From contig JACKQL020000167.1 of the NCBI GenBank assembly GCA_018296165.2, forward strand, positions 1 to 64,000: a stretch of DNA of 64,000 nt, given 5' to 3'. This DNA comes from Termitomyces sp. T153. Taxonomy: Eukaryota > Basidiomycota > Agaricomycetes > Agaricales > Lyophyllaceae. Positions 37 through 64,000 of the stretch are shown in pieces. The position numbers were made by a program, and so were the translations under genes. A model generated the notes under the pieces. The model worked only from the letters and a program-made list of their open reading frames with translations. It had not been told where the DNA came from and did not search any database. Every line of letters begins with the position of its first letter. Within the stretch, counting starts at the first letter, position 1.

Positions 37-1219
37 TGTCACGACCTGTCCCCTGGACCCCCGCACATCGTCCAGCAGCCCCCCGATTCCCCAATAACCC
101 CCGACGCTCTGCCGAACTGCCACCCATGCCCTGCACCTATTTTGGTTAGCCCTGACGCAACCCCGACTAACTCCGATGCCTCCCCGGCTAACTCTGACAG
201 CCCCCTGGCCAACTTCGACACCTTCCCCGCAGCCACTGACACTTACCCTGGATCTCCCGAACCCCAAGAACCATCCCTGCTGTTCCTGATCTTTGCCACC
301 CATCATCAACTCAACACCCTGGTTCCTCCGACCCATTCTGGAGTATCACAACAACCTCAGGGCGACCCGCATTCCCCAATGATCCCATCAAAGTATCAGC
401 GTGGCCTGATCCTCGATTGCAACCGACACCTGCCCACTCCACCAAGCCCCGCCGCCACAGCCAACGTACCCCAAAGTTCTCCGGTAGTCAGTATATAAGC
501 CGTCGAGTAGCTCTTCGTACTCTAGTCTTGATATTGCTTAACGTTACCTATGGTCTGATTGTTTCCTTCTCGTGTTTCGTGTTTCGTGCTTTGTGTTTCA
601 TGTCTCGTTTTCTTATCTCAGTCTCCCGGTCTTATCTCAGTCTCCCAGTCTTATCTCAGTCTCCCGGTCTTGTCTTGTCCCCATTTCGTTATCATTCTTG
701 TTATCGTTTTGTATCTCCACTCAAATCTACTCTTGTTCCATATCGACTCCATTCCATTTTGTCTGACGCTGTCTTGGTGACTCCATCCAGCCATTGTGCC
801 CAAGCCCTCATCAACCTAAATGACCTCACGAACTCCGCAATTACGATCACAAACCCCGACACTCTTTCACCAGGTCCGAACCTCGCTCTTTGCTCGGTCC
901 CGGACTCCATCAACTCCAATTGATCTCCCATCAAACCCCGGCTCCACTCCCATTGATCACACAGCCGCCTACCCCTTTGCTTCCACAAATCTCCCATACG
1001 GTCTTCTGCCTGAACCCCACCAAGACTGTCCTGTTTCCTCGCAATCCGACTTCTCCAGACCTCCCCGGATCTGTCCGGATCACATCCCACCAACTATCCG
1101 CACAAGCCATCCATGCCCGGAACATTTCGAGTGTTTGGTTACCAGTGCAAGGGGATCACGCCCGCCTAGTAAGGACTTGCCCAGTGCAGCTGAGCCCCTG
1201 AGGTCAGCGGAACCTGACA
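37..1219 (+). repeat. 5' LTR of copy 1
   Basis: This LTR has TG..CA ends. A TATA-like box (TATATAA, 492-498) lies in its middle. It is followed by three tandem 19-bp pyrimidine-rich units (about 610-668, consensus cttatctcagtctcccggt). The TATA box sits where an LTR promoter would be expected, so transcription probably starts a little downstream. The partner LTR at 5593-6785 differs mostly at CpG positions. Confidence 0.92.
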
Positions 1220-4262: not shown

Positions 4263-5380
4263 TCACTCCCTCCCCAGACCCACCAGCAACCCAACCCCCA
4301 GGTCGACTTCCGTCTGGGCCCGCACCACCGCTAAGACCTCCACCAACCCCGGCAATGCCTCCCCTGCGTCAGCCGCCACCTCCCACCATGACCCCGGGGC
4401 CACCACATTGCGTCGCCGATGCCCCACCAACAACCTCTCCAATTGCGCCATCCCCTGCTGCAACTCCAGAGGCTGAACCACAACCTGTCCTGAATCGACG
4501 CAAACGCCGTGGAGGCACTGTCCAGGAGGACCTGATGCTCCTGCACCCAGCCTAAACCCAGAAAATGAACCGTCAGTAACAAGCGGAGGAACAGGAGACA
4601 ACTCACAAAGGATTCCTGCATGCCCCGAAGCGGCCTTGTTGGCCAACCAATCCTCCCTCTGCCTCGCCGCCTCCAGCTCCACCCACAGTGCATCCCCCTC
4701 TGGAGCTTGCCCCCGCCCCTCTGCCTCCCCTGCGGGCTGCCCCTCCATCTGCGTCAGATGCTCCCGCAAGCCCCGCACCTCTAATGCTCGCTCCATTGCC
4801 ACGTGCACTGAAGTGTTCCTTTCCCACTCCATCGCCTCTTTCTCCGTCCGTGCCACATCCCGGTCCTCCCTCGCCCGTCAGAGCTCACCCTCCCATACTG
4901 CCAATAACGTCGTCAAAGCCTCCACCTGCTTGCGAAGGAAGACCTCTGTGATTGAAGGAATAGGCGCGGGGGGACTCAATGACCGTTCCGAGGGAATGCC
5001 TGGGGTAGGAGAAAAAAGGAAAGACTCTGGATGCCCTGCCGATGGCTCGCGCCCACGCAGCTTCTTGCTGGGTCCCACCCCCGAGGGCGGGGAGGCTCGA
5101 CGCTCCCCCCGAATCACCGCCAAGGATGCCCCCTTTCCCTTCGGCAATGTGGGACAAAACTTGGTCCACTTTGGAACCTCCGGAAAATCCACCACCACCA
5201 CCACAGATGGCTCTACAAAAGCCCCGTCAATCGTCCTGAAAGGACAAGTCGACACCACTTACGACTCCGGTCCCTGACGCTAGCGTGGCGCCGACACTCA
5301 AACTCCTCCCCCCCACTGTCGTACACCACCACCTCATCCAAATCGGCAGGAGAGACTACTGGATTGCTGGGGGAAGACAT
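4263..5380 (-). pseudogene. Antisense two-intron gene inside LTR element, copy 1 (broken)
   Basis: The gene reads against the element. Exon 1 is 5380-5263 (ATG at 5380). Intron 1 is 5262-5213 (GTAAGT..TAG). Exon 2 is 5212-4607. Intron 2 is 4606-4552 (GTGAGT..TAG). Exon 3 begins at 4551. Phases join cleanly at both junctions. The predicted product is about 340 residues: an acidic and Val-rich start, a basic Arg/Ser/Pro stretch, then a long Glu/Ala/Leu/Arg segment typical of a coiled coil. It shares the segments ELEAARQREDW and WVQEH with copy 2. Two lesions are visible: an in-frame TGA (4880-4878) shared with copy 2, and a 13-nt deletion in exon 3 near 4,485 that shifts the frame. No known domain is recognised. 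Similar coiled-coil hypothetical proteins seem widespread in Agaricomycete genomes, but that is from memory. Confidence 0.72.
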
Positions 5381-5592: not shown

Positions 5593-6785
5593 TGTCACGA
5601 CCTGTCCCCTGGACCCCCGCACATTGTCCAGCAACCCCCCGATTCCCCAATAACCCCCGACGCTCCGCCAAACTGCCACCCATGCCCTGTGCCTATTTCG
5701 GTTAGCCCCGATGCAACCCCGGCTAACTCCAACGCCTCCCTGGCTAACTCCGACAGCCCCCTGGCCAACTTCGACGCCTTCCCCGCAGCCACTGACACTT
5801 ACCCTGGATCTCCTGAACCCCAAGAACCATCCCTGCTGTTCCTGATCTTTGCCACCCATCATCAACTCAACACCCTGGTTCCTCCGACCCATTCCGGAGT
5901 ATCACGACAACCTCAGGGCGACCCGCATTCCCCAATGATCCCATCAAAGTATCAGTGCGGCCTGATCCTTGATTGCAACCGACACTCGCCCACTCTGCCA
6001 AGCTCTGCCAAGCCCCACCGCCGCAGCCAACGTACCCCAAAGTTCTCCGGTAGTCAGTATATAAGCCGTCGAGTAGCCCTTCGTACTCTAGTCTTGATAT
6101 TGCTTAACGTTACCTATGGTCTGATTGTTTCCTTCTTGTGTTTCATGTTTCGTGCTTTGTGTTTCATGTCTCGTTTTCTTATCTCAGTCTCCCGGTCTTA
6201 TCTCAGTCTCCCAGTCTTATCTCAGTCTCCCGGTCTTGTCTTGTCCCCATTTCATTATCATTCTTGTTATCGTTTTGTATCTCCACTCAAATCTACTCTT
6301 GTTCCATATTGACTCCATTCCATTTTGTCTGACGCTGTCTCAGTGACTCCATCCAGCCATTGTGCCCAAGCCCTCATCAACCTAAACGACCTCACGAACT
6401 CCGCAATTATGATCACGAACCCCGACACTCTTTCACCAGGTCCAAACCTTGCTCTTTGCTCGGTCCCGGACTCCATCAACTCCAATTGATCTCCCATCAA
6501 ACCCCGGCTCCACTCCCATTGATCACACAGCCGCCTACTCCTTTGCTTCCGCGAATCTCCCATATGGTCTTCTGCCTGAACCCTGCCAAGACTGTCCTGT
6601 TTCCTCGCAATCCAACTTCTCCAGACCTCCCCGGATCTGTCCGGATCACATCCCACCGACTATCCGCACAAGCCATCCATGCCCGGAACGTTTTGAGTGT
6701 TTGGTTACCAGTGCAAGGGGATCACGCCCGCCTAGTAAGGACTCACCCAGTGCAGCTGAGCCCCCGAGGTCAGCAGAACCTGACA
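5593..6785 (+). repeat. 3' LTR of copy 1
   Basis: This is a direct repeat of 37-1219 with the same ends, TATA box (6058-6064) and three 19-bp units. It is followed at once by the TSD ggact. Read on the minus strand, it lies only 212 bp upstream of the start codon of the antisense gene (5380). It is therefore the natural candidate for that gene's promoter. Confidence 0.92.
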
Positions 6786-29690: not shown

Positions 29691-32658
<2,968 letters not shown>

Positions 32659-41900: not shown

Positions 41901-44900
41901 ATGGCCATGGCTCAAACCCTACAGCTCAACCAGGGCTGGTTCTGGAAGCAGCGCAATACCAGATTACCATCTGTCCAGGACGAAATCGACCTAGCTTCGC
42001 ACGGAAACATCGAGGGTTGGAGAACGGCTCACGCTTTCCCATCCGAGGTGCACGTTGAGCTCTTCAAAGAAGGGTTGATTCCTGATCCTTACGTCGCATT
42101 CAACGAGCACAAAGTTCAATGTGAGTATATCTCGATCTCGGCCTGGCCTCTGATCACCATTTTCCAGGGATTGGCGACGTTGAATGGATTTACAAGTGCT
42201 CCTTTCCTTTCGACAAGCCCGTGGTACACGAACATGCTGTTTTCTTATTCGAAGGGCTGGATACCATTTGCGATGTTTACTTGGTGAGCCCACATTGACG
42301 CGTCTTGTTGGCCGATATCAATGTGACCACTTCTCGTCTAGAACGGAAAGGAAATCTTCTCAGCGGACAATCAATTCCGAACCTATACTTACAAAATCAA
42401 TCTTTCCGACGACGCGAATCCATTGCAGGAGATTAATACTTTACTTCTCCACTTTAAGTCGGCGAAGGCACTGGCGAAGGAGGAAGAGGCGAAGTATGGC
42501 AAAGTACGCGCTGGGTCAGCGAATCTCGGAGACCCTAGCCGTGTATATGTGCGAAAGGCACAATATGATTGGCGGTGAGCCTTACCGAGTCTGTTTACTT
42601 CGATGCTCAGACTCGTTCATCTGAAGATGGGATTGGGTTCGGCATAGTCCTTATGGCGTCGTAAAAATGCTCACGTCTTCTTCCAGGGCCCGGAGCTCAT
42701 GACGGCCGGTCCATACCGCCCAATTACTCTGACAACATACTCTGCCCGACTGAATGACGTTCATACACGCGCTTCTGTTTCATTCAACAAGGTCACTGGC
42801 GCGCCTTTACCTTCCTTGAAAGTTGACATTACTCTTGAGGGGTCTCCTGTCTACGAAGGTTCGGAGATTGTCTTGAAAGACACCTCTGGGAAAGAACTTA
42901 AAAGGGAATACGTGAGACTCCAAGGCAGTATCGATTCATTCCGCGATCTAGTGCAATGGCACCTGTCACCTGAGGAAGTCAATCTCTGGTGGCCCGTTGG
43001 ATATGGAGAACAGAAGTTGTATGATGTGACAGTCACCCTCGTCGGCTCTGTCAGTCTTGTCTACCCTATCTGTTCACCTTGTTGACCTATCGGTAACTCA
43101 GAATAGGCAGTTCCTTGATGTAAAGACGAAACGGATTGGCTTCCGCTCCGTCGAGTTAATTCAGGAGCCTCTGGCCGAACCTGACCAATATGGGAGCGGG
43201 ACGACGTTCCTGTTTGAAATAAATGGCATTCGTATCTTCATAGGAGGTGTATCATCGTCTTGTTGTATCTGAAATACTGAAAGCTAACTCCTGATTCAGG
43301 ATCTAATTGGATTCCGGCAGACAATTTTTTGACCACAATTACAGAAGAGCGATATCGAGCATGGCTTACTCTTCTTCGTGACGGTAACCAAAACATGGTA
43401 CGCATCTGGGGCGGCGGCATCTATGAACCAGACATCTTCTTTGACATATGTGATGGTAAGTTATCTGAGAGCCCTGATCACTCCGTGAGCTGATTCAGAG
43501 TAGAACTTGGTATCCTCGTCTGGCAAGACTTTCAGTTTGCATGTGGTGTTTATCCAGCTCATCCTGCGTTTGTTGAGAGTGTTCGGAAGGAGGCAATGGA
43601 CAACGTGACGCGGCTACGACACCACCCCTCACTGACTCTGTTTTGTGGCAACAACGAAGATTACCAGATGATCCTTCAATGGGGAGGTTCGTTTTGATGA
43701 ATTCCTCTCCCAGCCTTTCCTCCCAGTAATCGTATCGATCAGACACCGAAGATCTTCCTGCAAGAGTACTCTACGAACATATCTTCCCCGAAATAGTAGC
43801 AAAATTGACCGATCCGCCCATCCCTTATCACCGTGGGTCTCCCTACGGTGGCAAAGGCTGGGATACTGCCGACCCCACCATTGGAGATGTTCACCAGTGG
43901 GACATATGGGGCGGAAAAGAGTACCCTTATCATGATTATGACAGGCGTGGTGGGCGTTTTGTGAGGTATGGACTCATCTTCTTATTATGAGTCGCATAGT
44001 CAACCGGGAGGATTCTCGGCAGTGAATTTGGGATCCCGTCCATGCCAGATATGCGAACGATTGCGCATTGGATGGACGGCGCGGATAAATCACAATGGTA
44101 TTCACAATCGACGTTGATGGCTCAACACACGAAGGCTGGTGCTTTTGAACGTCGGTTCGCCATCGTAATGAATGAGAATTTTAGGTTGACGAGTGACCTG
44201 GAGACGTGCGTATCCTTCCGTTGAGCGTCTTCCGATGCATCTTACCCGTGGTAATTATAGTCATGTCTACAATACCCAGCTCATGCAATCTGAGGCCGTG
44301 AGCTATGCTTATCGGTCTTGGAGACGTGCATGGCGCGGCAGAGGAAAAGAATATGTATGTCTTTATCCCATCAATCGATGTGATAGCTGATTTGTCGCCA
44401 ATTCAGACCTCTGGTGTCCTCGTTTGGCAGTTGAATGACTGCTGGCCTGGCACGTCATGGGCCATTGCTGATTATTTCGTGAGTGTTTACTCTTCCAATC
44501 ACGAACGAATCTTTCAACAATTCCTCCAGCTTCGACCCAAACCATCGTACTTCACCATTGCACGCCAACTTACTCCTATCGCCATTGGTATTCATAGAAC
44601 GGTGATTATAGCCTCCTACTTAGTGTCAATATCTGGCTAACTCTTTTTCAGGTAATCAAGAACCGGGCGAATGATCGTCCCCACCAGGTAAATCGAAATG
44701 AATTGACCAAGTCGAATTTTGTGTGATGCCTTCTTAGTTTTACGAATTCGGAGCCATGCAATCTCATGACGCGACGATCGACGTATGGGGAACTAATACC
44801 GCTAATCACTCTCGTCTAGTGAAGCTAGAGCTTACCTGCCATGATCTCAACTCCAGTTGGACGCATAGCGAGAGACACAACGTCACCCTGCTCCCAAATC

Positions 44901-45322
44901 AATCTATAGAGCTACTCTCGATACGCTGCCCTGGCCCACCCAAGGAGGGCGTCGAACCCCCATCTGGCGACCCCATCTGGACATCGTCCTACTCAGTCGT
45001 TGTGAATGCGCGCCTGATCGATTCCGACGGAAAGGTATTAGCACGTTTCGCAGACTGGCCGCAGCCATACAGATATCTTGCTGTTCCCGATCCTCAACTT
45101 TCGGTCGAGCTCATTGACGAGCAAGTCACCGTGTCTGTACAGCGCCCTGTCAAAGGCTTGTGGTTCAGTGTTGAGGGAGATGGGCCGGAAGTGTCATGGA
45201 ATGATAATTCGCTTGATGTTGTTCCGGGTGACTCCCAGGTCATCACGGCGAAGGGGTTGGGAGATAGGAAACTCAAAGTGGCTTATCTTGGGAAAGAGAA
45301 GGCTTCGCTGGTTCATGTTTGA
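41901..45322 (+). CDS. Beta-mannosidase, glycoside hydrolase family 2
   Basis: Fifteen exons: 41901-42120, 42168-42283, 42342-42574, 42627-42636, 42687-43049, 43102-43246, 43300-43455, 43504-43686, 43743-43965, 44023-44205, 44261-44354, 44407-44478, 44530-44601, 44652-44687 and 44738-45322. All phases agree; 896 residues. The GH2 order is seen: a sugar-binding jelly-roll domain, an immunoglobulin-like domain, then a TIM barrel. In the barrel the acid/base Glu lies in CGNNEDYQ (about 464) and the nucleophile Glu in SEFGIPSMP (about 550). Further motifs are the conserved WDWGPEL, IRIWGGGIYE and WQLNDCWPG. A 10-nt exon encodes most of the RWDW motif. No signal peptide, so it is probably the intracellular GH2B type that trims beta-mannosides from mannan breakdown or N-glycan turnover. 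Convergent with the CxxC gene 67 bp downstream. Confidence 0.95.
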
Positions 45323-45804: not shown

Positions 45805-46162
45805 GGTTTGAAGACAGGGGTGATGACAAACCAGAAAAGGTAACCTTTATATGAGAGTGACTCCTGCCCAAAGCCGGGCCTCAGGAAGCATTGAGGACCC
45901 CATCAGTCACCGACTCGGAGGGTCAAAGCATGTCAGTGATGAAAACCTTTGAATGTCTGAACTCGATAGAAATAAAGTGTAGACCGCAAAAACGTATAAA
46001 GCTGTACAGGGCTTTCAAGATAAGAGGATGTACAAACAGGAAGATTATAGGAAGAGAAAAGTGTGAATTGGGGCAAATTCATCATTCATTGTGCCACTAT
46101 TAGATCACAAACCCCATAAACTCACGAAAACAGTTTGTTTCGTCCCCTCATCTCCTGCCACC

Positions 46163-47038
46163 ATGACAAAATCGCGAAAAGCACGCGTTGTGAAGGGTGG
46201 GTTCAGACTTGAACAATTGCCTGTAGAACTTTTGCAAGAGGTGCTAAGTTTCACAACGAGCTCGGCTGGTGTCTACAGATCTCTCCTTTTGGTTTCGAAA
46301 TCACTTAATTCGATAGTCAAGTTACACTGCCTCCAAGTAGTTCCAGTGGTTCTTCAAGGAATTGAAAAACTTCGTTCTTTTGACCGGCTTCTCGCATCTT
46401 CGCCGAAAAGCCCCAGTTACGTGCGTTACCTTTGGATCTATGGACAAGGGCTGAAGGAATGGGAGTTGATTGATTCGATCGTTGCAAGATGCTCCAATGT
46501 GGTAGCCTTATCATGCAATAGTAGGACACTCGCGTCTCTCTGTTCTTCTCCATCTTTTTTGCACACAAGATGCACCGAACTCACGCTCATCGAGAGCTGG
46601 CACGACTGGAAGCCGATCGTAGCTGCACGCCACGGAAGCCAATACTGTGCTCAAATCACCCATCTCCGCCTTTACCAAGGCTTAGATCCCGAATTTCCCA
46701 AACGCTACTTTACCAATCTCACGCACCTCGCCTTCTCATGTAGCCCCATAGGAGACTATTTGAAGCGCTACTCAGGGTACCTTTCCGGCCTTAGATCTTT
46801 GCTGCTCATCGTGGCAACGAATGCTGAATGGCATTACAATAGTTTCCCGGATGCGTCGGTATCTGAGCTGCTGGAGAACGACAGGAGATTTGCCATCCTA
46901 CAGTGTCGCGAGGATTGGACGGAAGTAGAGGCTTGGAAGGATCGCGTTAGAGGCGGGCGCAGCCTTTGGGAGCAAGCCAAAATTTCGCGAAAATCTATGC
47001 AGGTCTTCCGTGACGCATTCAGAATTTTACAAGGGTGA
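46163..47038 (+). CDS. F-box-like protein, intact copy
   Basis: Single open frame, 291 residues, no intron needed. The ATG at 46163 sits in a strong context (gccaccATGa) that is kept in the duplicate. An F-box-like N-terminal helix set (LEQLPVELLQEVLSF) is followed by a region with leucine-rich spacing (THLRLYQGLDPEFPKR, LTHLAFSCSP). This is the architecture of the very large, fast-evolving F-box families of Agaricomycetes. Such proteins usually recruit targets to SCF ubiquitin ligases; the target is unknown. An upstream in-frame extension to 46,091 has no ATG. Confidence 0.75.
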   Translation: MTKSRKARVVKGGFRLEQLPVELLQEVLSFTTSSAGVYRSLLLVSKSLNSIVKLHCLQVVPVVLQGIEKLRSFDRLLASSPKSPSYVRYLWIYGQGLKEWELIDSIVARCSNVVALSCNSRTLASLCSSPSFLHTRCTELTLIESWHDWKPIVAARHGSQYCAQITHLRLYQGLDPEFPKRYFTNLTHLAFSCSPIGDYLKRYSGYLSGLRSLLLIVATNAEWHYNSFPDASVSELLENDRRFAILQCREDWTEVEAWKDRVRGGRSLWEQAKISRKSMQVFRDAFRILQG

Positions 47039-47990: not shown

Positions 47991-48316
47991 AGACAGGGAT
48001 GGCGACAAATCAAGCAAGGTAAGCCTTTATATGAGATCGGTTCTTGCCAAAGCGCATAAGCCTCAGGAAACATTGATGGCCTATCAGTCACCGAGGCTCA
48101 AAAGCATGTCAGTGATGAGAAGATCAGGCCATGAAGCTTGAATGTCCAAACTCGATAAAAATACAGCTTGATCACAGACCACAAAAAAGGTACAAAATTC
48201 ATCTCAGAAGGAAAGGATTAGGGAATCATGTACCACAATGAGATAAGATTAGATCGTGAATTCTTAAACCTTGTGAAAACACTGGTAAGTCAAACTTGTT
48301 TCGCCCATTTCTGTCA

Positions 48317-48473
48317 CCATGACAAAATCGCGAAAAGCGCGCTTTGTGAAGGGTGGGTCCAGGCTTGAACAACTGCCTATTGAAATCTTGCAAGAAGCGT
48401 TAATTTTCACAGCGAGTTCGGCTGGTGTCTCTAGGTCTCTCCTTTTGGTTTCGAAAACACTTAACTCATGTTA
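48317..48473 (+). pseudogene. F-box-like gene copy B, 5' part
   Basis: The ATG at 48317 and about 50 codons are closely similar to the start of the intact gene (atgacaaaatcgcg, then EQLP and SAGVSRSLLLVSK). The frame is cut at 48,473, where the LINE begins. The 11 bases aactcatgtta at 48463-48473 recur at 60944-60954 and are the LINE's target-site duplication. The 3' part of the gene lies at 60,955-61,671. Confidence 0.9.
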
Positions 48474-50415: not shown

Positions 50416-52371
50416 CAGCTATCGCCCACATTGTCACAATGAGTGCAACAAGGGGAGAGGCAGGAGAGCAGGGGATGAGAAAGGGGAACAGACTAACTAT
50501 ATGGCAGCAGAACCTGAACAAATCGCTAACTGCACAACATGCCATGCTGAACACAATGGATGACACTATTGATATAATCTGTTTACAGGAACCATACTTT
50601 GATTTCAACAAGCAATCTAGAGCCACACAGAAATGGAGACCAGTGTACCCAAAATGACACGATGAGGTGAACCCCAGGGGAATGAGGGCAATCATGCTGG
50701 TAAACTACAAGATAGCAACAAACAAGTGGAGGAGGCTGAATGTCAAGAGCATGGACGTCGTAGGGGTAAGTGTCGAAACTGAGGGATGCACGCTGTGAAT
50801 CTTCAATGTCTACAATGATTGTGGGCACTCAGGTAGCATCAGAGTGCTGGACTTCTACCTAAGGAGCAGGGAGGGATGAGAACGAGGGGATGGAATGGGG
50901 CAGACATATGGGTGGGTGACTTCAATAGGCACCACCCAATGTGGGATCACTTGTGGAATGGTCACCTCTTCATGAAGCAGAACCTGGATGCGGCGGAGGA
51001 GCTCATCACAATCCTGACCTGGCACAGGATGGTCATGGCACTAAGACCAGCAGTGCCTACCCTCAAGGCAAAAAACACCAAGAACCTGACTAGACCTGAC
51101 AACGTATTCATGACTGACTCTTTAATTGAGCAGATAAACAGATGTAAAACCCTGCAGAGCAAACAACTGCCAAACACTGATCACTTCCCAATCACAATGA
51201 CAGTTGACATCACAGTAATGCGCATGGAGGGGGAGAAAACATGGGACTTCTGGAAGGTAGACTGGAAGGAATTTGAGGAGGAGTTGGGAAGGAGACTGGA
51301 GGGGGTTGGGACAACAAAGATAGAAAGGAAGGAGGAGGTGGAGGTGAGGTTGGAGAAGGTGATGGAAGCACTACAAGGAGCAGTGGAGGCAATGGTGCTG
51401 GCAAGGAGGGAGACATCGTACATGAAGAGGTGGTGGACGAGGGAGTTAACAGAAATGAGAGCAAGAGCAAGGGCGCTGGGCAGGGAGTTGGTGCAAGTGG
51501 AGGAGTTGCAGAACCATCCAGCACACAAGGCATACAGAAAGGCACACAACAACTACAGCCAGGCGATCAAGGACACCAAACAGAAACATTGGAGTGAATG
51601 GCTGGAGTCAGTGGATGCAAAGTCAGTATGGGACGCAAAGGACTTTGTGACTATGATGCCGTCAGATGGGGGGCAAGCAAGGACGCCAGCGTTAAAGGGG
51701 AACGTGAGTGGGGTGGAGAAAGTAGTGGAGGACAATGGAGAAAAGGCAAGGATCTTTCACAAAGCATTCTTCTATGACATGCCAGAGGAAGTGGGGATGG
51801 AGAACATGACAGACAGAGCAGAAGCGGCATTCAGGTGGATGCCCATTATGGACAGGGAGATACATGTGGCGATTGTGAAGCTGAACCATACAAAGCACCT
51901 GGACTGAGCAGCATCCCAAATGTGGTCTTGAAGCAAATGAGATATACCATTGTGCCATACCTGGGACCAATATTCTGGGTGACGTTTGAGTTGAAGGTGT
52001 ATCCAGAGAGGTGGAAGGTCTTCAAAATGGTAGTGCTGAGGAAGCCAGGGAATGATGACTACAGCAACCCCAACTTGTATTGACTGATAGCTCTGCTGGA
52101 CACCATCGCAAAAGTCCTGTCATCATGTGTAAAATCAAAGATGGCATACCTAGTCAAGAAAACAAACCTACTCCCGAAATGCCAGTTTGGCAGAAGGCCC
52201 GGCAGATTGACAACCAATTCAATCCACATGCTGATGGCCTTCATCAAAGGTGCATGGAGGAGAGGAAAGGAGGTGGTGGTTATATTCATGGATGTGAAGG
52301 GGGCCTTCCCAAACACAGTATCACGCGTAATGGTGAGCGACATGAGGAGGAGGGGCATTCCAGAGAAGGTG
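50412..52371 (+). pseudogene. LINE ORF2, 5' part (AP endonuclease and start of RT), broken
   Basis: Endonuclease motifs in order: WQQNLNKS (about 50,500), IICLQEPYFDF (about 50,575), VGDFNRHHPMWD (about 50,913) and TDHFPI (about 51,178). A Glu/Arg-rich linker follows. RT then starts with YKAPGLSSIPN near 51,890, continues with FGRRPGRLTTNS and the first catalytic Asp in FMDVKGAFPN near 52,290. Stops and a frame change lie near 50,655, 50,797, 50,876 and 51,905. The frame breaks after GIPEKVV at the insertion of the LTR element. Confidence 0.88.
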
Positions 52372-52376
52372 GTGAG

Positions 52377-53506
52377 TGTCATGACCCATCCCCTGAACCC
52401 CCGCACATTGTCCATCAACCCCCCGAACCCCCAAAAAACCCCCGACGCTCCGCCGAACTTCTGCCCATGCCCCGCGCCTATTTCGGCTAACTCTGACGCC
52501 TCCCCGGCTAACTCCGACAGCCCCCTGGCCAACTTTGGTGCCTTCCCCGCAGCCACTGACACTTACCCTGGATCTCCTGAACCCCGAGAACCACCCCCGC
52601 TGTTCCTGATCTTCGCCACCCATCATCAACTCAACACCCTGGTTCCTCCGACCTATTCCGGAGTATCACAACAACCTTAGGGCGACCCATGTTCCCCAAT
52701 GATCCCATCAACGTATCAGCACAGCCCAATCCTCGATCGCAACCAACACCCGCCCACTCCGTTGAGGTTCGCCAAGCCCCGCTGCCGCAGCCGACATACC
52801 CTGAAGTTCTCCGGTAGTCAGTATATAAGCTGTCGAGTAGCTCTTTGTACTCTAGTCTTGATATTGCTTAACATTACCTATGGTCTGATTGTTTCCTTCT
52901 CGTGTTTTGTGTTTTGTGTCTCGTTTTCTTATCTCAGTCTCCCAGTCTTATCTCAGTCTCCTGGTCTTGTCTTATCTCCATTCTGTTATTGTTCTCGTCA
53001 TCGTTTTGTACCTCCACTTGAATCTACTCTTGTTCCATATCATTTTGTCTGATGCTGTCTCAGTGACTCCATCCAACCATTGTGCCCAAGTCTTCATCAA
53101 CCTTAATGACCTTACGAACTCCGCAGTTACAATTACAAACCCCAACACTCCTTCACCAGGTCCGAACCTCGCTCTTCACTCGGTCCTGGACTCCATCAAC
53201 TCCAAATGATCTCCCATCAAACCCTGGCTCCGCTCCCATTGATCACACAGCCGCCTACTCCTTTGCTTCCACAAATCTCCCATACGGTCTTCTGCCTGAA
53301 CCCCACCAAGACCGTCTCGTTTCCTTGCAATCCGACTTCTCCGGATCTCCCCGGATCCGTCCGGATCACATCCCACCAACTATCTGCACAAGCCATCAGT
53401 GCCCGGAACGTCTTTGAGTGTCCGGTTACCAGTGCAAGGGGATCATGCCTGCCTAGTAAGGACTCGCCCAGTGCAGCTGAGCCCCCGAGGTCAGTGGAAC
53501 CTGACA
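52377..53506 (+). repeat. 5' LTR of copy 2
   Basis: Starts TGTCATGACCC, ends AACCTGACA. A TATA box lies near 52,822. Only two of the 19-bp pyrimidine units are present (three in copy 1). Confidence 0.92.
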
Positions 53507-56125
53507 TAATATCAAGACTCTACCTTACCCCATCCATGATGCCTGCATTATCTCCGCACACATGATCAAATAACTCCGATGTCTATGGTCTACCCATGCC
53601 TGGAAACCCTTATGATTCATATGGCCCTGCCCAATTTGCTGAGGCACATTGAGTCACGGATCTGACACCAAACGTCCCCTCCACTCCGGTTACATCCATA
53701 CAATGGCTCCCCCCACGGACACCCTCTCCAACTCACACCCAACCTCCAACCCCTCGCGCAAACCGTCAAATCATCTCCCACCCCACTCTTACCCTCTCTG
53801 CCAACTCCGTTCTCTCGCACAAAGTTGACCCTGACGTCACCCAAAGAACAGCATTCCAAAACCCAGCGACCACCCGACCAAATGAGCGACAATGTCTCTG
53901 GCACCGCAACAACCCTCCAACAAACAATAACGCCAACCCGCCGCAAAACAGTCGCCCATTGCACAAAGGATTGCCAGCCACAATGAGACCGCTGAGAACA
54001 CGCTTCCTCGAAGCCTGCCCTGTGGATCCACTGAACCACTAGCAACCCCGAAGGCCAATGCAACTAATCACCAACAACAGAGCAAGAACCCCAGACCCAG
54101 GCTATGCTCCAACCCCGGAACCTGCTTCTGGACCTTGGCCGACTTGACCGTCACCTCCACCCCACAAGTAAAGGGGCCCCAACACCGCCGACCTGACCCC
54201 AACAACCCCGGAACAAGACCAAGACATCCCCGAGCCTCTAGACGTTAATAAGGAGAACCACGGCACCCCACTCCCAACAAGGGACAACTCCAGACCACGC
54301 CGCTATTTCACCACCCTCCCCCACACAATCCAGAGCCCCCAACAATGAGGACCCTGGACGCCAAACCCCCCTCACATGCCACCCCTGAACCTAAACTCCA
54401 CCACCAGACTCCGCCACCTCCCACAAAGGAATCCCCAGCATAGGAGCCACCCCAAACTAACTATAGGAAAAAGGACCCTATACAAAGTAGTTCCCTAAGT
54501 ACTCTAAATTCACTGACATGTTCATATAAGGGAGGGAGAAGCCCCACCATCACTCAGAAAACGACGATCGGCCGTTTAAGCGACCTGACGACCCAAAGGG
54601 CACACGCTCCGATATCCTTAAAGGACCTCCCCCACCTGGCTCGACGACCCAAACAACCCCGTGCCAGCCCAAAACTGCCCGACCCAGACCCCCTCCGAAC
54701 CCCTTGACACAGCTCCGGACCCTGGCAACACAACTCCAGGGCCTCCGCTCCGACTACAACATTTGATCAAGGGGACTTACAACGCCAACAACGGTGCCCA
54801 GGTAGCCCCAACTCCGCAGCATAAATCACCACCCGCCCTGAATCCCACCCCTATGCCAGAATATGTCTGCCAAATGGGGACCACACCATCGGAGCACCCA
54901 GAAGCAAGCCACATACAAGTATCCTCTTTGGAGTACCCAGAAGCAGGCCACCTGCGAAGTAATCTCTCGGAGTACCCCAAAGGTTGCTGATGCCTCCCCC
55001 AAGGAGCAAGCGGTGCCTCTTCCCACTGCCACCCCCACACTTGCAACAATCTCCGGGCCACTCCGGAACACGAATGAAGAGTTGCCTCGACCCTGCCGCG
55101 ACTCCCGGGGAGCCCCACTCCAGTGCCTCCCCATGGCTGACCTCCCCGCCGCCCCAACAACCGTGAACAACCAACAAATCCCCACCGAGTGACCCTTGTG
55201 TCGACTCCGGGACCACCCACTTCTTCCCCGATGAAGGAACCACTGACCCCCAGACCTCCGAACTCGAGGAAGTATCAGAAATATGTAAGACCCCTCTATC
55301 CGTCTCAGGGCTTACCTTTGGCCAGGAAGGCAATATCACATAGATGATCCGGAATCTCAAATTTCGGCCCCGGACCTGAAGGAACTGGTCGGGACTGATC
55401 ACCCCGCACTCCACCCCCTCGGTCATCGACACTCTGGAGCACACCAAAGCACCACTTGAACATGCCCGCCCACAGACGCAATACTCCGGAACACGACCCC
55501 GACCCAGACCAACTATGCCACGAGGACGAACCTCGCCCCACCGACCCCCACCAATAAAGAGGGCCCCGCCACCCTTGCCACCAGCATCGACATAAGGGCC
55601 AGATCCTGGGAAGACCTCTGCCCCCCCCCCCGCCAACCACACAGCCAGGAAGACCAAAGCCCCGAACCGCTGGACACCTGTGAAAGATTCAAAGGCCCGC
55701 CCTCCGACACCAACATGGCGCACGTCCCCGCTGCAGACCAAAGAAAACCCCTACACCCCTGGTCAGAAATTCCGAGAATCAAATGCAATACAACACCCCG
55801 AAACACCACAGAACTCCACTGGAGAACTCCCACCACCCTTGCCAGACCCCAGGAGCCCTCCCTGCAATGCCCCGCCCCGTCCCGACAAACCTAGCCAGCA
55901 CAGTTGGCACTGACGGGCGTAACCCCCGCCTCTGGATTCACTAGGGATTCAACTCCCTCTCACACCCCTGCGTGTTTTGCTTACTTTGCCCTCATACAAA
56001 CTAAAACCTCACTTCACACGCCCAGGGACCAAGAAGAGGGCATGTTCGCATACAAAAAATTATATACAACAAGGCGAGGGAGGTGGCAAGTCCGAGAGCA
56101 ACAAGAAACGAGGCCCACACCCATC
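53507..56125. other. Internal region of copy 2, no gene recognised
   Basis: This is C/A-rich on the + strand and clearly homologous to 1220-4262. The open frames do not keep their reading between the two copies, unlike the antisense gene, which argues that this part is non-coding. Confidence 0.6.
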
Positions 56126-57255
56126 TCACTCCCTCCCCGGACCCCCCGGCAACCCAACCCCCAGGTCGACTTCCATCTGGGCCCGCACCACTGCTAAGAT
56201 CTCCGCCAACCCCGGCAATGCCTCCCCCGCGTCAGCCGCCACCTCCCACCATGACTCCAGGGCCACCGCGTTGTGTCGCCGATGCCCCGCCAACAACCTC
56301 TCCAATCGTGCCATCCCCTGCTGCAACTCCGGAGGCTGAACTGTGGACCCCTGTGTCAACCCGTCCTGAATCAATGCGAACGCCGTGGAGGCACCGTCCA
56401 AGAGGACCCAATGCTCCTGCACCCAGCCTAAACCCAGAAAATGAACTGTCAGTAACAAACGGAGGAACGGGAGACAACTCACGAAGGATCCCTGCGCGCC
56501 CTGAAGCGGCCTTGTTGGCCAACCAATCCTCCCTCCGCCTTGCCGCCTCCAGCTCCACCCACAACGCATCCCCTTCCAGAACTCGTCCCCACCCCTCCGC
56601 CTCCCCCGCGGGCTGCCCCTCCATCTGCGTCAGATGCTCCTGCAAGCCCCGCACCTCTAACGCTTGCTCCGTTGCCACACGCACCGAAGTGTTCCTCTCC
56701 TGCTCCATTGCTTCTTTCTCCGTCTGCGCTATGTCACAGTCCTCCCTCGCCCGTCAGAGCTCACCCTCCCATACTGCCAACGACGTCGTCAAAGCCTCCA
56801 CCTGCTTGTGAAGAAAGACCTCCGTGATCAAAGGAATCGGCGCGGGGGGACTCAACGACCGTTCCGAGAGGACGCCCGGGGCAGGAGAAAAAAGGGAGGA
56901 CTCCGGAGGCCCCGCCGATGACTCGTGCCCACGCGGCCTCTTGCTGGGTCCCACCCCCAAGGGCGGGGAGGCTCGACGCTTCCCCCGAATCACTGCCAAA
57001 GACGCCCCCTTTCCCTTCGGCAACGCGGGATGGAACTTGGTCCACTTCAGAACCCCTGGAAAATCCACCACCACCACCACGGACGATTCTACAAAGCCCC
57101 GTCAATCATCCCAAAAAGAAAAGTCGACACCACTTACGACTCCGGTCCCTGACGCTAGCATGGCACCAACGCTCAAACTCCTCCCCCCCACTGTCGTACA
57201 CCACCACCTCGTCTGAATCAGTGGGAGGGACTACTGGAACACTGGGGGAAGACAT
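56126..57255 (-). CDS. Antisense two-intron gene inside LTR element, copy 2
   Basis: Exons 57255-57138, 57088-56483 and 56427-56126. Introns are 49 nt (GTAAGT..TAG) and 55 nt (GTGAGT..TAG). Phases join at both borders and exons 1 and 2 have the same lengths as in copy 1 (118 and 606 nt). The spliced frame has 341 codons plus stop with one internal TGA (56756-56754) between EGEL and RARED, which is also present in copy 1. The product starts MSSPSVPVV, has an acidic patch, a Val run (VVVVVDF), a basic Ser/Pro stretch, then a long Glu/Arg/Leu/Ala coiled-coil-like region (VELEAARRREDWLA) and a C-terminal amphipathic region. Translation past the TGA, or start at a later Met, would be needed for a product. 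No domain is recognised. It starts 212 bp inside the 3' LTR, on the strand opposite to the element. Confidence 0.7.
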
Positions 57256-57467
57256 GACGAAATTTGAGAAATTCCGGGGTACGTCCAAAGCTTTTAATTG
57301 ATTGAGGAGAACCCTGACAAAGCGGCGGCCACGCTTCGACTTCGTCTCCCATGCCACTATCACTCGCTGCGGATTGATCAATATTGCTCGGCTTTGACTC
57401 CCACGCCCTGCCGATCCCCATCCTGCCCCCCGCATCTCGAAGGGTCTCGACGCTGAAGGAGGGGTGA

Positions 57468-58593
57468 TGTCACGACCCGTCCCCTGAACCCCCGCACATT
57501 GTCCATCAACCCCCTGAACCCCCAAAAAACCCCCGACGCTCCGCCGAACTTCCGCCCATGCCCCGCGCCTATTTTGGCTAACTCCGACGCCTCCCCAGCT
57601 AACTCTGACAGCCCCCTGGCCAACTTTGGTGCCTTCCCCGCAGCCACTGACACTTACCCTGGATCTCCTGAACCCCGAGAACCACCCCCGCTGTTCCTGA
57701 TCTTCGCCACCCATCATCAACTCAACACCCTGGTTCCTCCGACCTATTCCGGAGTATCACAACAACCTTAGGGCGACCCATGTTCCCCAATGATCCCATC
57801 AACGTATCAGCACAGCCCAATCCTCGATCGCAACCAACACCCGCCCACTCCGTTGAGCTCCGCCAAGCCCCGCTGCCGCAGCCGACATACCCCAAAGTTC
57901 TCTGGTAGTCAGTATATAAGCTGTCGAGTAGCTCTTTGTACTCTAGTCTTGATATTGCTTAACATTACCTATGGTCTGATTGTTTCCTTCTCGTGTTTTG
58001 TGTTTTGTGTCTCGTTTTCTTATCTCAGTCTCCCAGTCTTATCTCAGTCTCCTGGTCTTGTCTTATCTCCATTCTGTTATTGTTCTTGTCATCGTTTTGT
58101 ACCTCCACTTGAATCTACTCTTGTTCCATATCATTTTGTCTGATGCTGTCTCAGTGACTCCATCCAACCATTGTGCCCAAGTCTTCATCAACCTTAATGA
58201 CCTTACGAACTCCGCAGTTACAATTACAAACCCCAACACTCCTTCACCAGGTCCGAACCTCGCTCTTCGCTCAGTCCTGGACTCCATCAACTCCAAATGA
58301 TCTCCCATCAAACCCTGGCTCCGCTCCCATTGATCACACAGCCACCTACTCCTTTGCTTCCACGAATCTCCCATACGGTCTTCTGCCTGAACCCCACCAA
58401 GACCGTCTCGTTTCCTTGCAATCCGACTTCTCCGGATCTCCCCGGATCCGTCCGGATCACATCCCACCAACTATCCGCACAAGCCATCAGTGCCCGGAAC
58501 GTCTTCGAGTGTCTACCAGTGCAAGGGGATCATGCCTGCCTAGTAAGGACTCGCCCAGTGCAGCTGAGCCCCCGAGGTCAGCGGAACCTGACA
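57468..58593 (+). repeat. 3' LTR of copy 2
   Basis: Direct repeat of 52377-53506, preceded by the G-rich tract and followed by the TSD gtgag. It lacks a few bases near 58,513 (fgagtgt to taccag junction) relative to the left LTR. Confidence 0.92.
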
Positions 58594-58598
58594 GTGAG

Positions 58599-60606
58599 GT
58601 GGTTCGAGAGGAAGCTGGAGGGGAGGAGGACGGTGATTTCTTTTGATGACTACACCTCAGAAATGATCCCAGTGAACAGTGGGCTTGACCAAGGATGCAA
58701 TATGTCAGGCCTCTGCTACAACTTTTACAATGCGGGTCAGATCAAAGGGGCAAAAGAGGAGGATAGAGAGCTGGCGGGGTCATTCGCAGATGATGCATAT
58801 GTGGCAGCTGAGGGGAAGGACATGGAGGAGGCAGCAAGGAGAGTGGAGGACATGATGAAGAGGGACAAGGGAGCAAGCAGGTGGGCAAAGGAACACTTTT
58901 CCATCTATGAGATCAAGAAGTTTGTGAGGATGGGCTTCACAAGGAGGAGGAAGAAGGGCAGCTGAAACCAAAAGAAGACCCAGCCTGCAAGGAGACCACG
59001 AATCACTATAGACAGGACAGTGATCAAAGTGGAAGCCTTGCACAAATTCCTGGGAGTAATCCTTGACCAAGAACTACAGTTCAAAGAACACGCGGCATAC
59101 GCACATGGCAAGGGAACAGCAGTGGCAATGCAGATGAAATGACTGGCAAAGGTCAATGGGGGTGTAAGGAGTATGTTCATGAAGAAGCTGTACAAGGCCG
59201 TGGTAGCACCAAGCATGCTATATGCAGCAGACATGTGGTGCAGGCTGGATGTGGAGATTGGAGGGAAGCTGGCGAAGGGGATGAGGGGAGTCATGGAGAG
59301 GCTGGGAAGGGTCCAGAGGATGTGTGCACTACAGATGCTGGGGGTGCTATGAACAATGCCGAATGACATGCTGGAGGCACATGCAGGACTTGTACCAATG
59401 GGCATCAGGATCAAGAAAATGTGTGTTGGCATGGCAGCAAGGATAGCAGTCATGCCGGACACACATCCATTATACAAGCCAGCAAGGCAAGCAGTGCAGT
59501 CCATCAGGCAGCATCGAGCACCCCTTCATGAGATCATGGGAGTGCTAGGGGAGAAACCAGACAACATGGAGACCATAGCAATAGTGCGCCACCCACTGGA
59601 ATGGGAATGCCTGATAAAAGTCGACATTGACAGCTCGGTTGAGGAGGCGGAGGAGAGGGAGAGGCGCAACAAGGCAGACATCACAGTATACATGGATGGA
59701 TCAGGGCATAAAGGGAAAATAGGAGTGGTGGCCATGTTATACAGAGAGTTCAGGAAGGAGGTAAAGGTGATGAGGAAGTGTTTGGGATCAGAGGAGAAAC
59801 ACACAGTGTTTGAGGGAGAATGCATGGGACAAATGCTAGAGTTGGAGCTGTTGAGGCGAGAGGTGAGACGAGAAGTGAGGGCAAAGAGGAGGGTGAGGGA
59901 CGCGACAATAGGGACAGACAACCAGGCGGGAATGCGGGCACTGGAGGATCCAGGACCAGGGACAGCAAGGTACTTAGTGGACAGGGTGCTGGAGGGAATC
60001 CAGAAGGTTCGGAAGATCAACCCGTGGTTGAAGATCGGGATATACTGGACGCTGGGGCATACAGGCATACCAGGGAACAAAAGGGCAGACAGGGAAGCCA
60101 AACGGGCAGCGAGCGGAAATGAAACCGAGACCTCAGGGATTCCAATCTTGAGGAAACCGCTGAAAGCGTCCAGAACAGCAATCCTAGCAGTGCACAAAAA
60201 GCGATGGAGGCAGGAGACTTAGACAATCATACAAAACTCACCCAGGTTCGACAGGCTGAAAGCCATCGACCCAGAGATGCCCAGGACAAAGACCATAATA
60301 CAGACCCTGGCCAGCCTGCCGAGAAAACATGCATCGCTGCTCATCCAATTACACACAGGACACTGCCTGCTCAATCCATATCTGCACAGATTCAATGAGG
60401 TCAACTCACCAGTGTGCACCACATGCAACAGAGACGTGGAGACAGTAGACCACTACCTGGTTGCTTGCCAGGCATACGAGGCGCTGAGAAGGGAGCTCTA
60501 TGACACCATTGCCCCAGGACCAGACATCGTGCGCAGGCTACTGAGCGATCCCGAAGCAACGAAAGCCCTATTCAAGTATATCAACTGCACGAGGAGATTC
60601 GAATGA
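58599..60606 (+). pseudogene. LINE ORF2, 3' part (RT catalytic core, RNase H, zinc finger), broken
   Basis: It resumes the RT directly after the TSD. PVNSGLDQGCNMSGLCYN and the catalytic FADDAYVA box (58783-58794) are intact. Stops occur after 58,965 (TGA), near 59,140 and near 59,350. RNase H follows with its Asp in VYMDGSG (about 59,690), Glu in FEGECMGQ (about 59,815), and Asp in GTDNQAG (about 59,920). After a stop at 60,222 a C-terminal C-x2-C...H...C motif is seen (CTTCNRDVETVDHYLVAC, about 60,418-60,471). Confidence 0.9.
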
Positions 60607-60954: not shown

Positions 60955-61671
60955 TGTTACACTGCCTGCAAGTGATTCCAGTGGTTCTTCGAGGAATTCA
61001 AAAGCTTTGTTCTTCTCACCGACTTCTGGCATCTTCGTTGAAATCCTCGGGTTACGTGCGTTACTTTGGATCTACGAAGAAGGGCTGGAGGAATGGGAGT
61101 TGATTGATTCAATCGTTGCAAGATGCTCCAAGGTGGTAGCTTTATCTTGCAATAGTAGAATACTCGCATCTCTTTGTTCTTCTCCATCTTTTTTGCACAC
61201 AAGGTGCACCGAACTCATGCTCATTGAGAGCTGGCACGACTGGAAGCCGATCGTAGCCGCACGCCATGGAAGCCAATACTGTGCTCAAATCACCCATCTC
61301 CGCCTTTACCAAGGCTTAGATCCCGAATTTCCCAAACGCTATTTACCAATCTCACGTACCTCGCCTTTTCACGTCGTCCCATAGGAGATTGTCTGAAACC
61401 CTATCTAGGGTACCTTTCCGGCCTTGGATCTTTGCTGCTTATCGTAGCAACGAATGCTCGATGGCCTTACAATATTTCCACAGATGCATCAGCATTTGAG
61501 TTGCTGGAGCATGACGAGAGATTTGCCATTCTACAGTATCGCGAAAATTGGACGGAAGTCGAGGCTTGGAGGGATCGCATCAGAGGCGGACGGAGCCTTT
61601 GGGAGCAAGTCGAAGTTTCGCGCAAATCTGTGCAATTCTTCCGTGACGCATTCAGAATTCCACAAGGGTGA
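60955..61671 (+). pseudogene. F-box-like gene copy B, 3' part
   Basis: It continues the gene cut at 48,473 and closely follows the intact copy (ELIDSIVARCSKVVALSCNSR, then LIESWHDWKPIVAARHGSQY). Two lesions exist besides the LINE: a net 2-nt loss beside the insertion site and a frame change near 61,340-61,395. The final segment (61,432-61,671) returns to the original frame. The gene would be dead even without the LINE. Confidence 0.88.
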
Positions 61672-62432: not shown

Positions 62433-64000
62433 TCAAGGACAAAGCTTATTTGCAACCTCCTCTATCAACTTCCGCACATCCTTCTTTGTAACACCTTCTT
62501 CTCCACACCCACCCTTCGCCAGTTTCCGCTTAAGCACATCGCGAGCCTGCAAGACTTCCAACAAAGGTGAAAGTTGATTCCCATACGCAGGCGAGACCCG
62601 AAGGAGGCAGGCCAGCGATGCCGTCAGCCGATGTACTAGAAGCAATCTCAGAAGACGCTGGATTGAGATGGGCGAATGAACTTACCGACTTCCTCACTCG
62701 TAACCTCTCTATCTAGTGCCTCCACAACGGCGCTAACCATCTCAACTTCCCAATCCTCATCCTCTTGCACGTTCTCCGCACCACCTCTCACCTTTTCAAC
62801 TCTTCCCTTCTGCAGATACGCGGAAACATTGAATGTAAGACTTGCTGCTGCAGTCCGTACCAACCCGTCGGTGTGCAGTAGACTCGGAATCACAACAGCC
62901 GCTACAGCCGCACGCGCAGACGTGAAAAGAGTCTGCGCTAGAACAGGCGTAGCGAATGCGTTGGAGAGGAGTCGTAAGGTTGTAAGAAGGAAGTTGCGTG
63001 GGTTTGAAGATGGGTCAGATTGTTGGAGTGTCGTAGTGGCCTTGTTGACGAAGATGGATAGGGGATTGGATGCTACTGAGGAGGAAGCAACCCATGTACC
63101 GACGGCAGGATCAAGTAAGGCGAGGCGCCAGAGATCGACGAGAGGGAAGAGAGACGCAACGGGGAGCGTGGAGGAAAGGGCTAATGTAACGTGGCTCCAT
63201 GATATCAAGATGGCTGTTGTGGCTGAAGGGAGTTTTGCTGAAGGAGAGGCTGGGGACCGTGCTTTGAGGTATGGTGCGACGGTTCCTGTCAGGATTTGTT
63301 TTACCTGAGTGGGCGTGTGGGGAGTTGAGGATGGCCATGTAGTCGAGTCGATAAAGGAGGAAAGTTTGGCCAGGACGGTGTCTATCGCAGGGACCTGGGT
63401 AAATAGTATGGGGTTCAAGGAGAGGGCTTGGACTGCGGGGAGGGATAATGAGGTATGAGGATGTGCTACGCGCGAGATGAGCTCAGATCGAAGCTGCAGA
63501 GATGAATTGGAACCTACGTGGGAAAGCCTGGAAGAGGAGTAAATCGACCTGCGTTCGCAGTTCATTGGCATCGGCACCTTTCAGTTCGTCTAGCTGATGA
63601 GACACATCAGTAATAAGTATGGTAGATTGACAGCTAATGAGTGATCTGCACCTTTTCTCCGTCTAAGAAGAACATGAACGTTGGCGTCGCGCGAACATTC
63701 CACTGACTCGCCAGACTATTCCCCAACCCAACATCGATATCGATTTTCGCAAACCCAGCACCACGGCCATCAGCCTTGATTCCCTTCTCCTCTGCGAGTC
63801 TCTCAAAGACAGGTTCAATCATCCGACACGGTCCACAAGTAGCGCTCGTGAAGAAGGCCACGGAAGCGCGATGATTCTTCAGGAAGGTATTGAACGAGGC
63901 TGGATTGGTGATGGCATGGATAGGCGCAGTGAGTGACTGGGTTGCAGTGTTGGGGGCAGCTGTCGACGCTGTCGATGCAGCAGCTCGAGAGGCAACAGCT
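62433..64000 (-). CDS. Thioredoxin-PUL domain protein, C-terminal part (runs off window)
   Basis: Exons on the minus strand: (64000)-63652, 63593-63549, 63493-62686 and 62635-62433. Phases agree and introns are 50-58 nt. The first visible segment is a low-complexity Ala/Thr/Ser linker. It is followed by a thioredoxin fold with the redox site ATCGPCRMIEP, a conserved cis-Pro (RATPTFMFF) and the usual spacing. The remaining 350 residues are helical and fit a PUL domain (the armadillo-like module of PLAA/Ufd3 that binds Cdc48/p97). In fungi these two modules commonly follow an N-terminal PPPDE (DeSI-type isopeptidase) domain, which would lie beyond the right edge; this is from memory and not visible. 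Probable role: ubiquitin/SUMO-linked redox or Cdc48 partner function. Confidence 0.85.

Follow-up and report, generated by a model that had tools for sequence, protein, structure and literature searches.

An LTR retrotransposon family of Termitomyces sp. T153 without detectable gag or pol carries a predicted spliced gene on its antisense strand, and comparison of the copies showed a signature of purifying selection on the antisense protein within this gag-pol-less lineage, strong when the copies were contrasted with the intact reference copy L030 and weaker with other references. The gene is probably an old accessory gene of a self-priming chromovirus (Ty3/gypsy with a chromodomain) that was kept by the lineage, here called the satellite. 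We have fairly good confidence in this structural and evolutionary account, and the specific role proposed below for the antisense protein is put forward tentatively.

The window is a stretch of 64,000 nucleotides on contig C167 of the 72.4-Mb, 307-contig host genome. A sequence-only reading had proposed that two LTR elements in it share an antisense gene with equal lengths of exons 1 and 2, canonical splice borders and perfect phase. The same three-exon layout was found on the minus strand of both elements, at 57255-56126 (copy A) and 5380-4263 (copy B), with an exon 1 of 118 nt and an exon 2 of 606 nt in each, and with GT..AG introns of 49/50 nt (intron 1) and 55 nt (intron 2) in both (Table 1). 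The phase did not hold: an in-frame TGA interrupts codon 151 of the spliced frame in both window copies (56756-56754 in copy A, 4880-4878 in copy B), and in copy B a 13-nt deletion shortens exon 3 from 302 to 289 nt and leaves the remainder out of frame. The antisense gene is real, with its predicted introns, but both window copies are pseudogenes and the evidence for it comes from the genome-wide family. Copies A and B differ at 24, 41 and 54 sites at codon positions 1, 2 and 3 (14, 17 and 22 without CpG-type changes), and a selection test on these two copies alone was dropped because the codon signal was too weak.

Table 1. Features of the two LTR elements of the window and of their antisense gene copies
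Feature	Position	Strand	Details
Element A	52377-58593	+	TSD GTGAG at 52372-52376 and 58594-58598
Element A 5' LTR (1130 bp)	52377..53506	+	97.8% BLAST identity to 3' LTR
TATATAA in element A 5' LTR	52822-52828	+	
Primer-like AGTCTTGATATT in element A 5' LTR	52854-52865	+	12-nt complement to PBS
Self-priming PBS TAATATCAAGACT	53507..53519	+	immediately 3' of element A 5' LTR
Element A interior	53507..56125	+	no gag/pol detected
Copy A exon 3 (302 nt)	56126..56427	-	C-terminal part, most conserved
Copy A intron 2 (55 nt)	56428..56482	-	GTGAGT..TTTAG
Copy A exon 2 (606 nt)	56483..57088	-	NLS-like basic stretch and coiled-coil region; in-frame TGA
Copy A intron 1 (49 nt)	57089..57137	-	GTAAGT..TGTAG
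Copy A exon 1 (118 nt)	57138..57255	-	
Antisense ATG to 3' LTR stretch	57256..57467	-	probable antisense promoter, and sense PPT
Polypurine tract GAAGGAGGGGTGA	57455..57467	+	near-identical tract precedes the L051 3' LTR
Element A 3' LTR (1126 bp)	57468..58593	+	
Element B	37-6785	+	TSD GGACT
Element B 5' LTR	37..1219	+	
Copy B exon 3 (289 nt)	4263..4551	-	after 13-nt deletion
Copy B exon 2 and intron 2	4552..5212	-	exon 2 5212-4607, intron 2 4606-4552
Copy B exon 1 and intron 1	5213..5380	-	exon 1 5380-5263, intron 1 5262-5213
Element B 3' LTR	5593..6785	+	

The sense strand of the elements is the plus strand, because the PBS is complementary to a self-priming site in the LTR below the TATA box and a PPT precedes the 3' LTR; the minus-strand gene is therefore antisense, as had been claimed. 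The reversed orientation, in which the gene would be sense, is excluded by the same PBS complementarity, TATA box and PPT. In 13 of the 14 LTRs or elements tested, a spacing of 32 nt separates the first base of TATATAA from that of the 12-nt PBS complement (for element A the distance was measured in the 3' LTR, and the 5' LTR positions were read from the sequence). The longest PBS complement in shuffled LTRs (200 each) was only 9-11 nt. The sole exception to the 12-nt complement was L031, whose PBS is changed. L031 also has a second PBS (TAATATCA) directly 3' of its 3' LTR, suggesting a tandem array with a common LTR.

Fifteen LTR pairs could be assembled, with identities of 88.5-99.1%. Exact 5-bp TSDs flanked 11 of them and were lacking in 3, and 1 pair could not be scored; PBS and PPT were present in all 15 elements, as is characteristic of LTR retrotransposons. 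These pairs include both L044 and L045 (C286 and C66), which are apparently one insertion; the 14-LTR PBS test took in L045 only, and the set of 14 interiors L044 only. The shared LTR lengths and differences of L044 and L045 suggest the same insertion held twice, perhaps as a second haplotype or a duplicated segment.

The proposed lack of gag-pol was confirmed, none being detectable in the ORFs tested or in the 14 interiors. Among further ORFs of the two window elements, the four tested had no Pfam match at E <= 1. A tblastn search with the pol of the autonomous relative described below (L051) gave no match at E <= 0.01 in the 14 satellite interiors, and its upstream (gag) frames gave one reverse-strand match (E 0.008). 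The carrier is a non-autonomous, LARD-like LTR element with a self-priming PBS.

Two genome searches that took the gene as query yielded 572 and 554 first-look candidates, of which the best 40 were scored each time, and exact sites joining the LTR end to the PBS numbered 660, a count that takes in autonomous relatives. We aligned 31 copies, namely 30 loci (copy A among them) and copy B; L016 and L017, the gene copies corresponding to L044 and L045, are both within this set. Exon 1 was 118 nt in 31/31 copies and exon 2 was 606 nt in 29/31, whilst intron 2 was 55 nt in 31/31 and intron 1 was 49 or 50 nt. Splice donors were GT in 27/31 copies for each intron, and acceptors AG in 31/31 and 30/31. 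An open frame arising by chance is excluded by this exon conservation together with the six-frame control below.

Four further copies (L062-L065), for which only the openness of the frame, the splice borders and the differences from L030 were checked, brought the set to 35 non-autonomous copies. An internal stop or broken frame was present in 25 of the 35. The frame was open to the terminal stop in 10, a proportion that is no genome-wide estimate, the first 30 copies having been chosen by similarity to a broken copy. Four of these 10 had lost a splice dinucleotide, leaving 6/35 with an open frame and all four dinucleotides. Five gene copies of the L030 lineage (on C221, C159, C105, C171 and C208) were 99-100% identical; the two LTRs of the copy on C221 are about 2% apart, and the five copies may have spread by segmental duplication. 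The L030 copy was considered as a young insertion in view of these near-identical genes, but this was rejected, as its LTRs have 16 mismatches in the approximately 690 bp compared.

The gene is not confined to the non-autonomous element: a gag-pol-bearing chromovirus in this genome carries it as well, in the interval between pol and the 3' LTR. In an integrase search, the best 150 of 2236 candidates were scored and set against the PBS sites listed for contigs C1-C6. Of the 23 scored matches on these contigs, 17 were preceded on their own strand, at 5.37-5.63 kb, by a PBS identical to that of the satellite, and none by one on the opposite strand. One such element, L051, encodes a gag of 836 aa and a pol of 1394 aa with protease, RT, RNase H, integrase, a Tf2-1-type SH3 domain and a chromodomain (Pfam PF00078, PF17917, PF17921, PF00665, PF24626 and PF00385). 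The frames of its gag (79-2589) and pol (2556-6740) differ and overlap, which would fit a -1 shift. Its PBS has a 13-nt complement below a TATA box and its PPT is of the satellite kind; self-priming is predicted from the complementarity. PBS complementarity, RT, RNase H, integrase and chromodomain are all present, and on these features L051 is a candidate member of the Tf1/sushi branch.

The L051 antisense gene encodes 514 aa in four exons (124/239/871/311 nt, with introns of 51/49/51 nt), and its protein shares 49% identity over 300 aa with the satellite protein; at the DNA level the two genes are 64-68% identical. Intron 3 of L051 aligns with satellite intron 2 in the protein alignment. Intron 1 of the two genes has the same phase and the same GTC|GT border, behind a first exon of 124 against 118 nt, and is probably the same intron in both, within a stretch of unalignable protein. 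Between the two genes dN/dS was 0.34 over 325 codons, at a high dS (1.3). Outside the gene, sequence common to satellite and L051 comprises the LTR end together with roughly 43 nt at the start of the interior, some 110 bp that surround and follow the pol stop, and the region adjoining the 3' LTR. Satellite and L051 are far apart, most of the LTR pieces that align having about 66-71% identity, and the L051 family may not be the actual helper of the satellite.

Seven loci were fetched for comparison of the autonomous gene. The six aligned copies kept the layout, except for a 9-nt difference in exon 3 of one; two had internal stops and two mutated donors, and three were intact in these respects. 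Within the family, the ratio of non-synonymous to synonymous changes relative to expectation was 0.20 (changes in 2-5 of 5 copies). In L053 the antisense gene is interrupted by unrelated sequence, and L054, a different gypsy element, had no antisense gene in the 2.2 kb read. The extra part of the L051 antisense protein contains CX2CX6CX15CX2CX6C, a Zn2Cys6-like pattern whose cysteines were retained in 3/3 aligned copies and which is without counterpart in the satellite protein; Pfam Zn_clus matched at E 0.0065 with 17.0 bits, below the cut-off of 21. A PDB sequence search with the autonomous antisense protein gave no match at E <= 1. A scan of viral contigs confirmed 0/33 pattern matches.

For the selection analysis of the satellite gene, 30 copies were contrasted with the intact copy L030, and CpG and non-CpG changes were separated. 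The non-CpG differences from L030 present in at least 20 of the 30 copies comprised 35 synonymous changes (13.3 expected) and 8 non-synonymous changes (28.6 expected), and so low a non-synonymous count was reached in 0/1000 simulations. CpG changes in at least 4 copies were as expected for synonymous (68, expected 66.8), non-synonymous (122, expected 124.0) and stop changes (5, expected 4.2), and being random over these classes they indicate that dead copies are decaying. Purifying selection on the antisense protein is indicated because the non-CpG changes are mostly synonymous and the CpG decay is neutral. Non-CpG singletons showed a milder skew, with 51 synonymous (35.9 expected) and 56 non-synonymous changes (69.7 expected). 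CpG decay was near-equal in LTR, gene, introns and interior of 30 satellite loci (0.20-0.24 per CpG site and copy), as expected of methylated dead copies.

In a six-frame control the antisense frame alone was stop-free in L030 and had the lowest ratio (0.11). The other antisense frames had no such skew in this control, and ratios were 1.6-5.4 over both thresholds in all frames other than the antisense frame and the sense frame with which it has third positions in common. Per 100 sites, the density of non-CpG changes common to at least 60% of 29 loci was 2.3, 1.2 and 9.4 at codon positions 1, 2 and 3 and 8.7 in introns, with 4.1 in the 300 bp after the gene and 6.8 in the next approximately 1.06 kb of interior. 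Change density, codon-position bias and six-frame control together bear out constraint on the exons as against introns and interior. By part of the gene (changes in at least 10 copies), constraint was strongest in the C-terminal part (0.06) and weakest in the basic stretch (0.29).

With other reference copies the ratios were weaker. For changes in 20-30 copies, where counts are small (11-19), they were 0.24 for L009 (6/1000 simulations), 0.36 for L001 (59/1000), 0.42 for L025 (144/1000) and 0.98 for L014 (632/1000; n 11), so that one of these four was clearly below chance. In our reading, decay in the reference copy itself enters such counts. Changes in 8-19 copies gave ratios of 0.33-0.68, with 2/5 references under 5%, and changes in 4-7 copies gave 0.39-0.59, with 4/5 references under 5%, L009, L001, L025 and L014 all among them. 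These values weaken the result of purifying selection and do not cancel it.

The gene could instead be a passenger, with a selection signature that arose in autonomous relatives and reached the satellites time and again through template switches of the reverse transcriptase. The majority of satellite copies are broken, the gene is about as similar in DNA to that of L051 as the alignable LTR pieces of satellite and L051 are to each other, and a closer helper may hide, the best 40 of about 550 candidates having been scored. In the tree, however, the 31 satellite genes formed one clade with none of the 6 autonomous genes inside it and a long branch between the two groups; L053 (cut gene), L059 and L060 were excluded from the tree and from the selection test. 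The gag-pol-less interiors of L030 and L007 match that of element A at 86-88%. A search with the autonomous gene gave 480 candidates, a list that may overlap with the 554-572 of the satellite, and its best 40 matches were all full-length genes of the autonomous type at 93-100% identity, 24/40 of them at 98-100%. A closer autonomous partner was also sought at two integrase matches with outlying PBS distances, and both proved to be of the L051 family. We consider repeated entry into satellites rather unlikely.

It is very improbable that the constraint lies on the sense RNA or the DNA, as with packaging signals or a regulatory antisense RNA, and not on the protein. The approximately 213 bp by the 3' LTR, PPT included, are conserved, and non-coding antisense transcripts are known in other elements (PMC7264820). 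Within the gene, however, conservation tracks codon positions and is missing from introns, the protein has 49% amino acid identity to the autonomous one with a dN/dS of 0.34, and the one of the five other frames that seems constrained is so via third positions and has stops in L030. Selection on a host gene or a domesticated copy, for which one might cite the several open copies and the NLS-like stretch of the product, has still less to recommend it, as the 15 copies with pairable LTRs are complete elements with PBS and PPT, and the gene occupies a fixed place both in the autonomous element and in the satellite copies read. Least credible of all is a sense-strand ORF over the gene as the real product: long ones do overlie it (up to 448 aa open in one copy, L040) and the sense frame with common third positions has a ratio of 0.19, but it has 3 stops in L030, the antisense frame being stop-free there and lower in ratio, the one such ORF tested over the gene (56005-56808) had no Pfam match, the conserved splice sites are those of the antisense strand, and a C-rich strand would be expected to hold few stops.

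For an antisense accessory gene kept by the satellite, expression from the 3' LTR had been suggested. This is not the best reading, as the approximately 213 bp between gene and LTR are more conserved than the LTR (change density 2.3, non-CpG, against 4.9) and the interior (6.8) and contain a TATA-like box; this conserved stretch is more likely to be the antisense promoter than the LTR itself. It has 77.8% identity to the autonomous element. The TATA-like ATTAAAA lies at 57298-57292 in the satellite, about 37 nt before the antisense ATG; the 4 aligned autonomous copies have a comparable box, and a AATATTGATCAA block (about 57374-57385) is common to both stretches. The antisense protein has a bipartite basic stretch (KRR..SKR) resembling an NLS. 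The predicted coiled coil gained support from a structure model of the exon-3 part of the autonomous relative, in which residues 158-247 form a long helix suitable for one (pLDDT 83-96 over residues 161-240); the model was otherwise poor, as was that of the C-terminal part. That C-terminal part is conserved and under the strongest constraint of the parts scored. From these features we infer a nuclear, dimeric coiled-coil accessory protein.

A gag-pol-less condition is known from LARD-type non-autonomous LTR elements and from pairs such as Dasheng/RIRE2 of rice, in which an autonomous partner has a common PBS and PPT. Such elements are not known to carry a selected gene of their own; the satellite follows the same pattern but kept one antisense gene. 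HBZ of HTLV-1 is encoded antisense near the 3' LTR, and is a spliced, nuclear, coiled-coil product. It resembles the satellite gene, by description, in placement near the 3' LTR and in a nuclear product, whereas the promoter here seems to be internal and not in the LTR. Tf1 is not known to have an antisense gene. HBZ is mentioned also in PMC11963269, and a self-priming PBS that pairs with the 5' region of the element's own transcript is described for Tj1 and Tf1 in PMC4600332. Likeness to Tf1/sushi extends to the self-priming PBS and, in L051, to the Tf2-1-type SH3 and chromodomain; the PBS match of 12-13 nt in satellite and L051 is unlike Tf1/sushi.

Antisense genes as such are already known in LTR elements. 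In most copies of the plant Ty3/gypsy aORF-3R elements, including Grande (gene23), RIRE2, Retand (TRP28) and PvRetro13 (PMC7264820, PMC11963269), the interval from pol to the 3' LTR contains a conserved gene on the strand opposite to gag-pol, and the products are suspected to be nuclear or DNA-binding, as we suppose for the Termitomyces gene. Grande gene23 has its own upstream promoter. The L051 gene occupies this same place, and the satellite gene has the same position relative to the 3' LTR as in L051. The plant elements differ in host kingdom, Retand belongs to a non-chromovirus lineage, and TRP28 (PF04195) gave no match at E <= 1 in the satellite ORFs or L051 proteins tested. Of 63 Retand clusters, 10 lack gag or other domains; every cluster in Table 1 of PMC11963269 keeps some gag-pol domain, whereas none was detected in the satellite lineage. 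The word 'intron' was absent in a word search of PMC7264820 and PMC11963269. Among fungi, the Boty LTR elements of Botrytis cinerea likewise carry an extra gene in antisense, brtn (described by Zhao et al., 2011, according to PMC7264820 and PMC8365987). Boty differs in being from an ascomycete, and the citing descriptions, by which it was compared, mention no gag-pol-less retention. The function of antisense genes of LTR elements is called unknown in PMC7264820 and PMC11963269. With limited terms in the open literature, we came across neither an element lacking gag-pol and described as having an antisense gene under selection, nor any antisense gene in an Agaricomycete LTR element. As antisense genes such as those of Retand and Grande and brtn are on record, what appears new here is the conserved introns and the selected retention without gag-pol.

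We propose that the gene was ancestrally antisense between pol and the 3' LTR of a self-priming chromovirus, and that an old, abundant derivative lineage would have lost gag and pol and retained the LTRs, PBS, PPT and the antisense gene with its upstream stretch. For its copying the satellite would presumably depend in trans on a relative that has gag-pol and whose PBS and PPT are the same as its own. The introns of an antisense gene stay in the sense genomic RNA and hence survive retrotransposition; the gene can be copied intact because the sense RNA made from the LTR retains them. Expression would come from the internal antisense promoter adjoining the 3' LTR. The nuclear, dimeric coiled-coil product would then aid the element that encodes it, a cis preference that is suggested by the retention of the gene under selection in a gag-pol-less lineage. 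In the autonomous form, DNA would probably be bound via the Zn2Cys6-like cluster, and the satellite form, without the cluster, may pair with the helper protein through its coiled coil and C-terminal part.

The gene had also been offered as the reason why the element persists. Selection indicates that it mattered to the lineage, but a helper with an identical PBS could suffice for persistence. If selected retention without gag-pol is true, the protein works at least partly for the element encoding it, because a parasite of the machinery would not be expected to retain a product that acts purely in trans. A bolder reading, to which we give little weight, is that the one spliced antisense gene left to the satellite encodes a cis-acting hijack factor that has lost the Zn-cluster part of the helper protein and retained its dimerisation and C-terminal parts, and which would pair with the antisense regulator of the helper and divert the helper's machinery to satellite RNA or DNA, much as satellite viruses exploit their helpers. 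With a satellite and a gag-pol-bearing relative in one genome, each in many copies, and a protein part unique to one of them, the function is directly testable.

Several other features were observed in the window. The insertion of element A interrupts a non-LTR retrotransposon (50837-60222), of which an endonuclease-like ORF (PF14529) lies upstream and an RNase H match below threshold downstream. Another LTR of the satellite family, apparently solo and in the opposite orientation, lies at about 11917-13067 on the minus strand. A PIF1-like helicase piece (PF05970) at 18066-18590, together with 16380-17501, is presumably a Helitron remnant; the ORF at 16380 had no Pfam match. Duplicated pieces of an F-box gene, 84-94% alike, flank the retroelement nest at 46155-47008, 48311-48467 and 61064-61641, with PF00646 (F-box) in the ORF 46067-47035. 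Likely host genes encode a TPP-dependent enzyme (24249-25577), an AAA ATPase (30520-31561), a mannosidase Ig domain (44738-45319) and a PUL domain (62651-63580).
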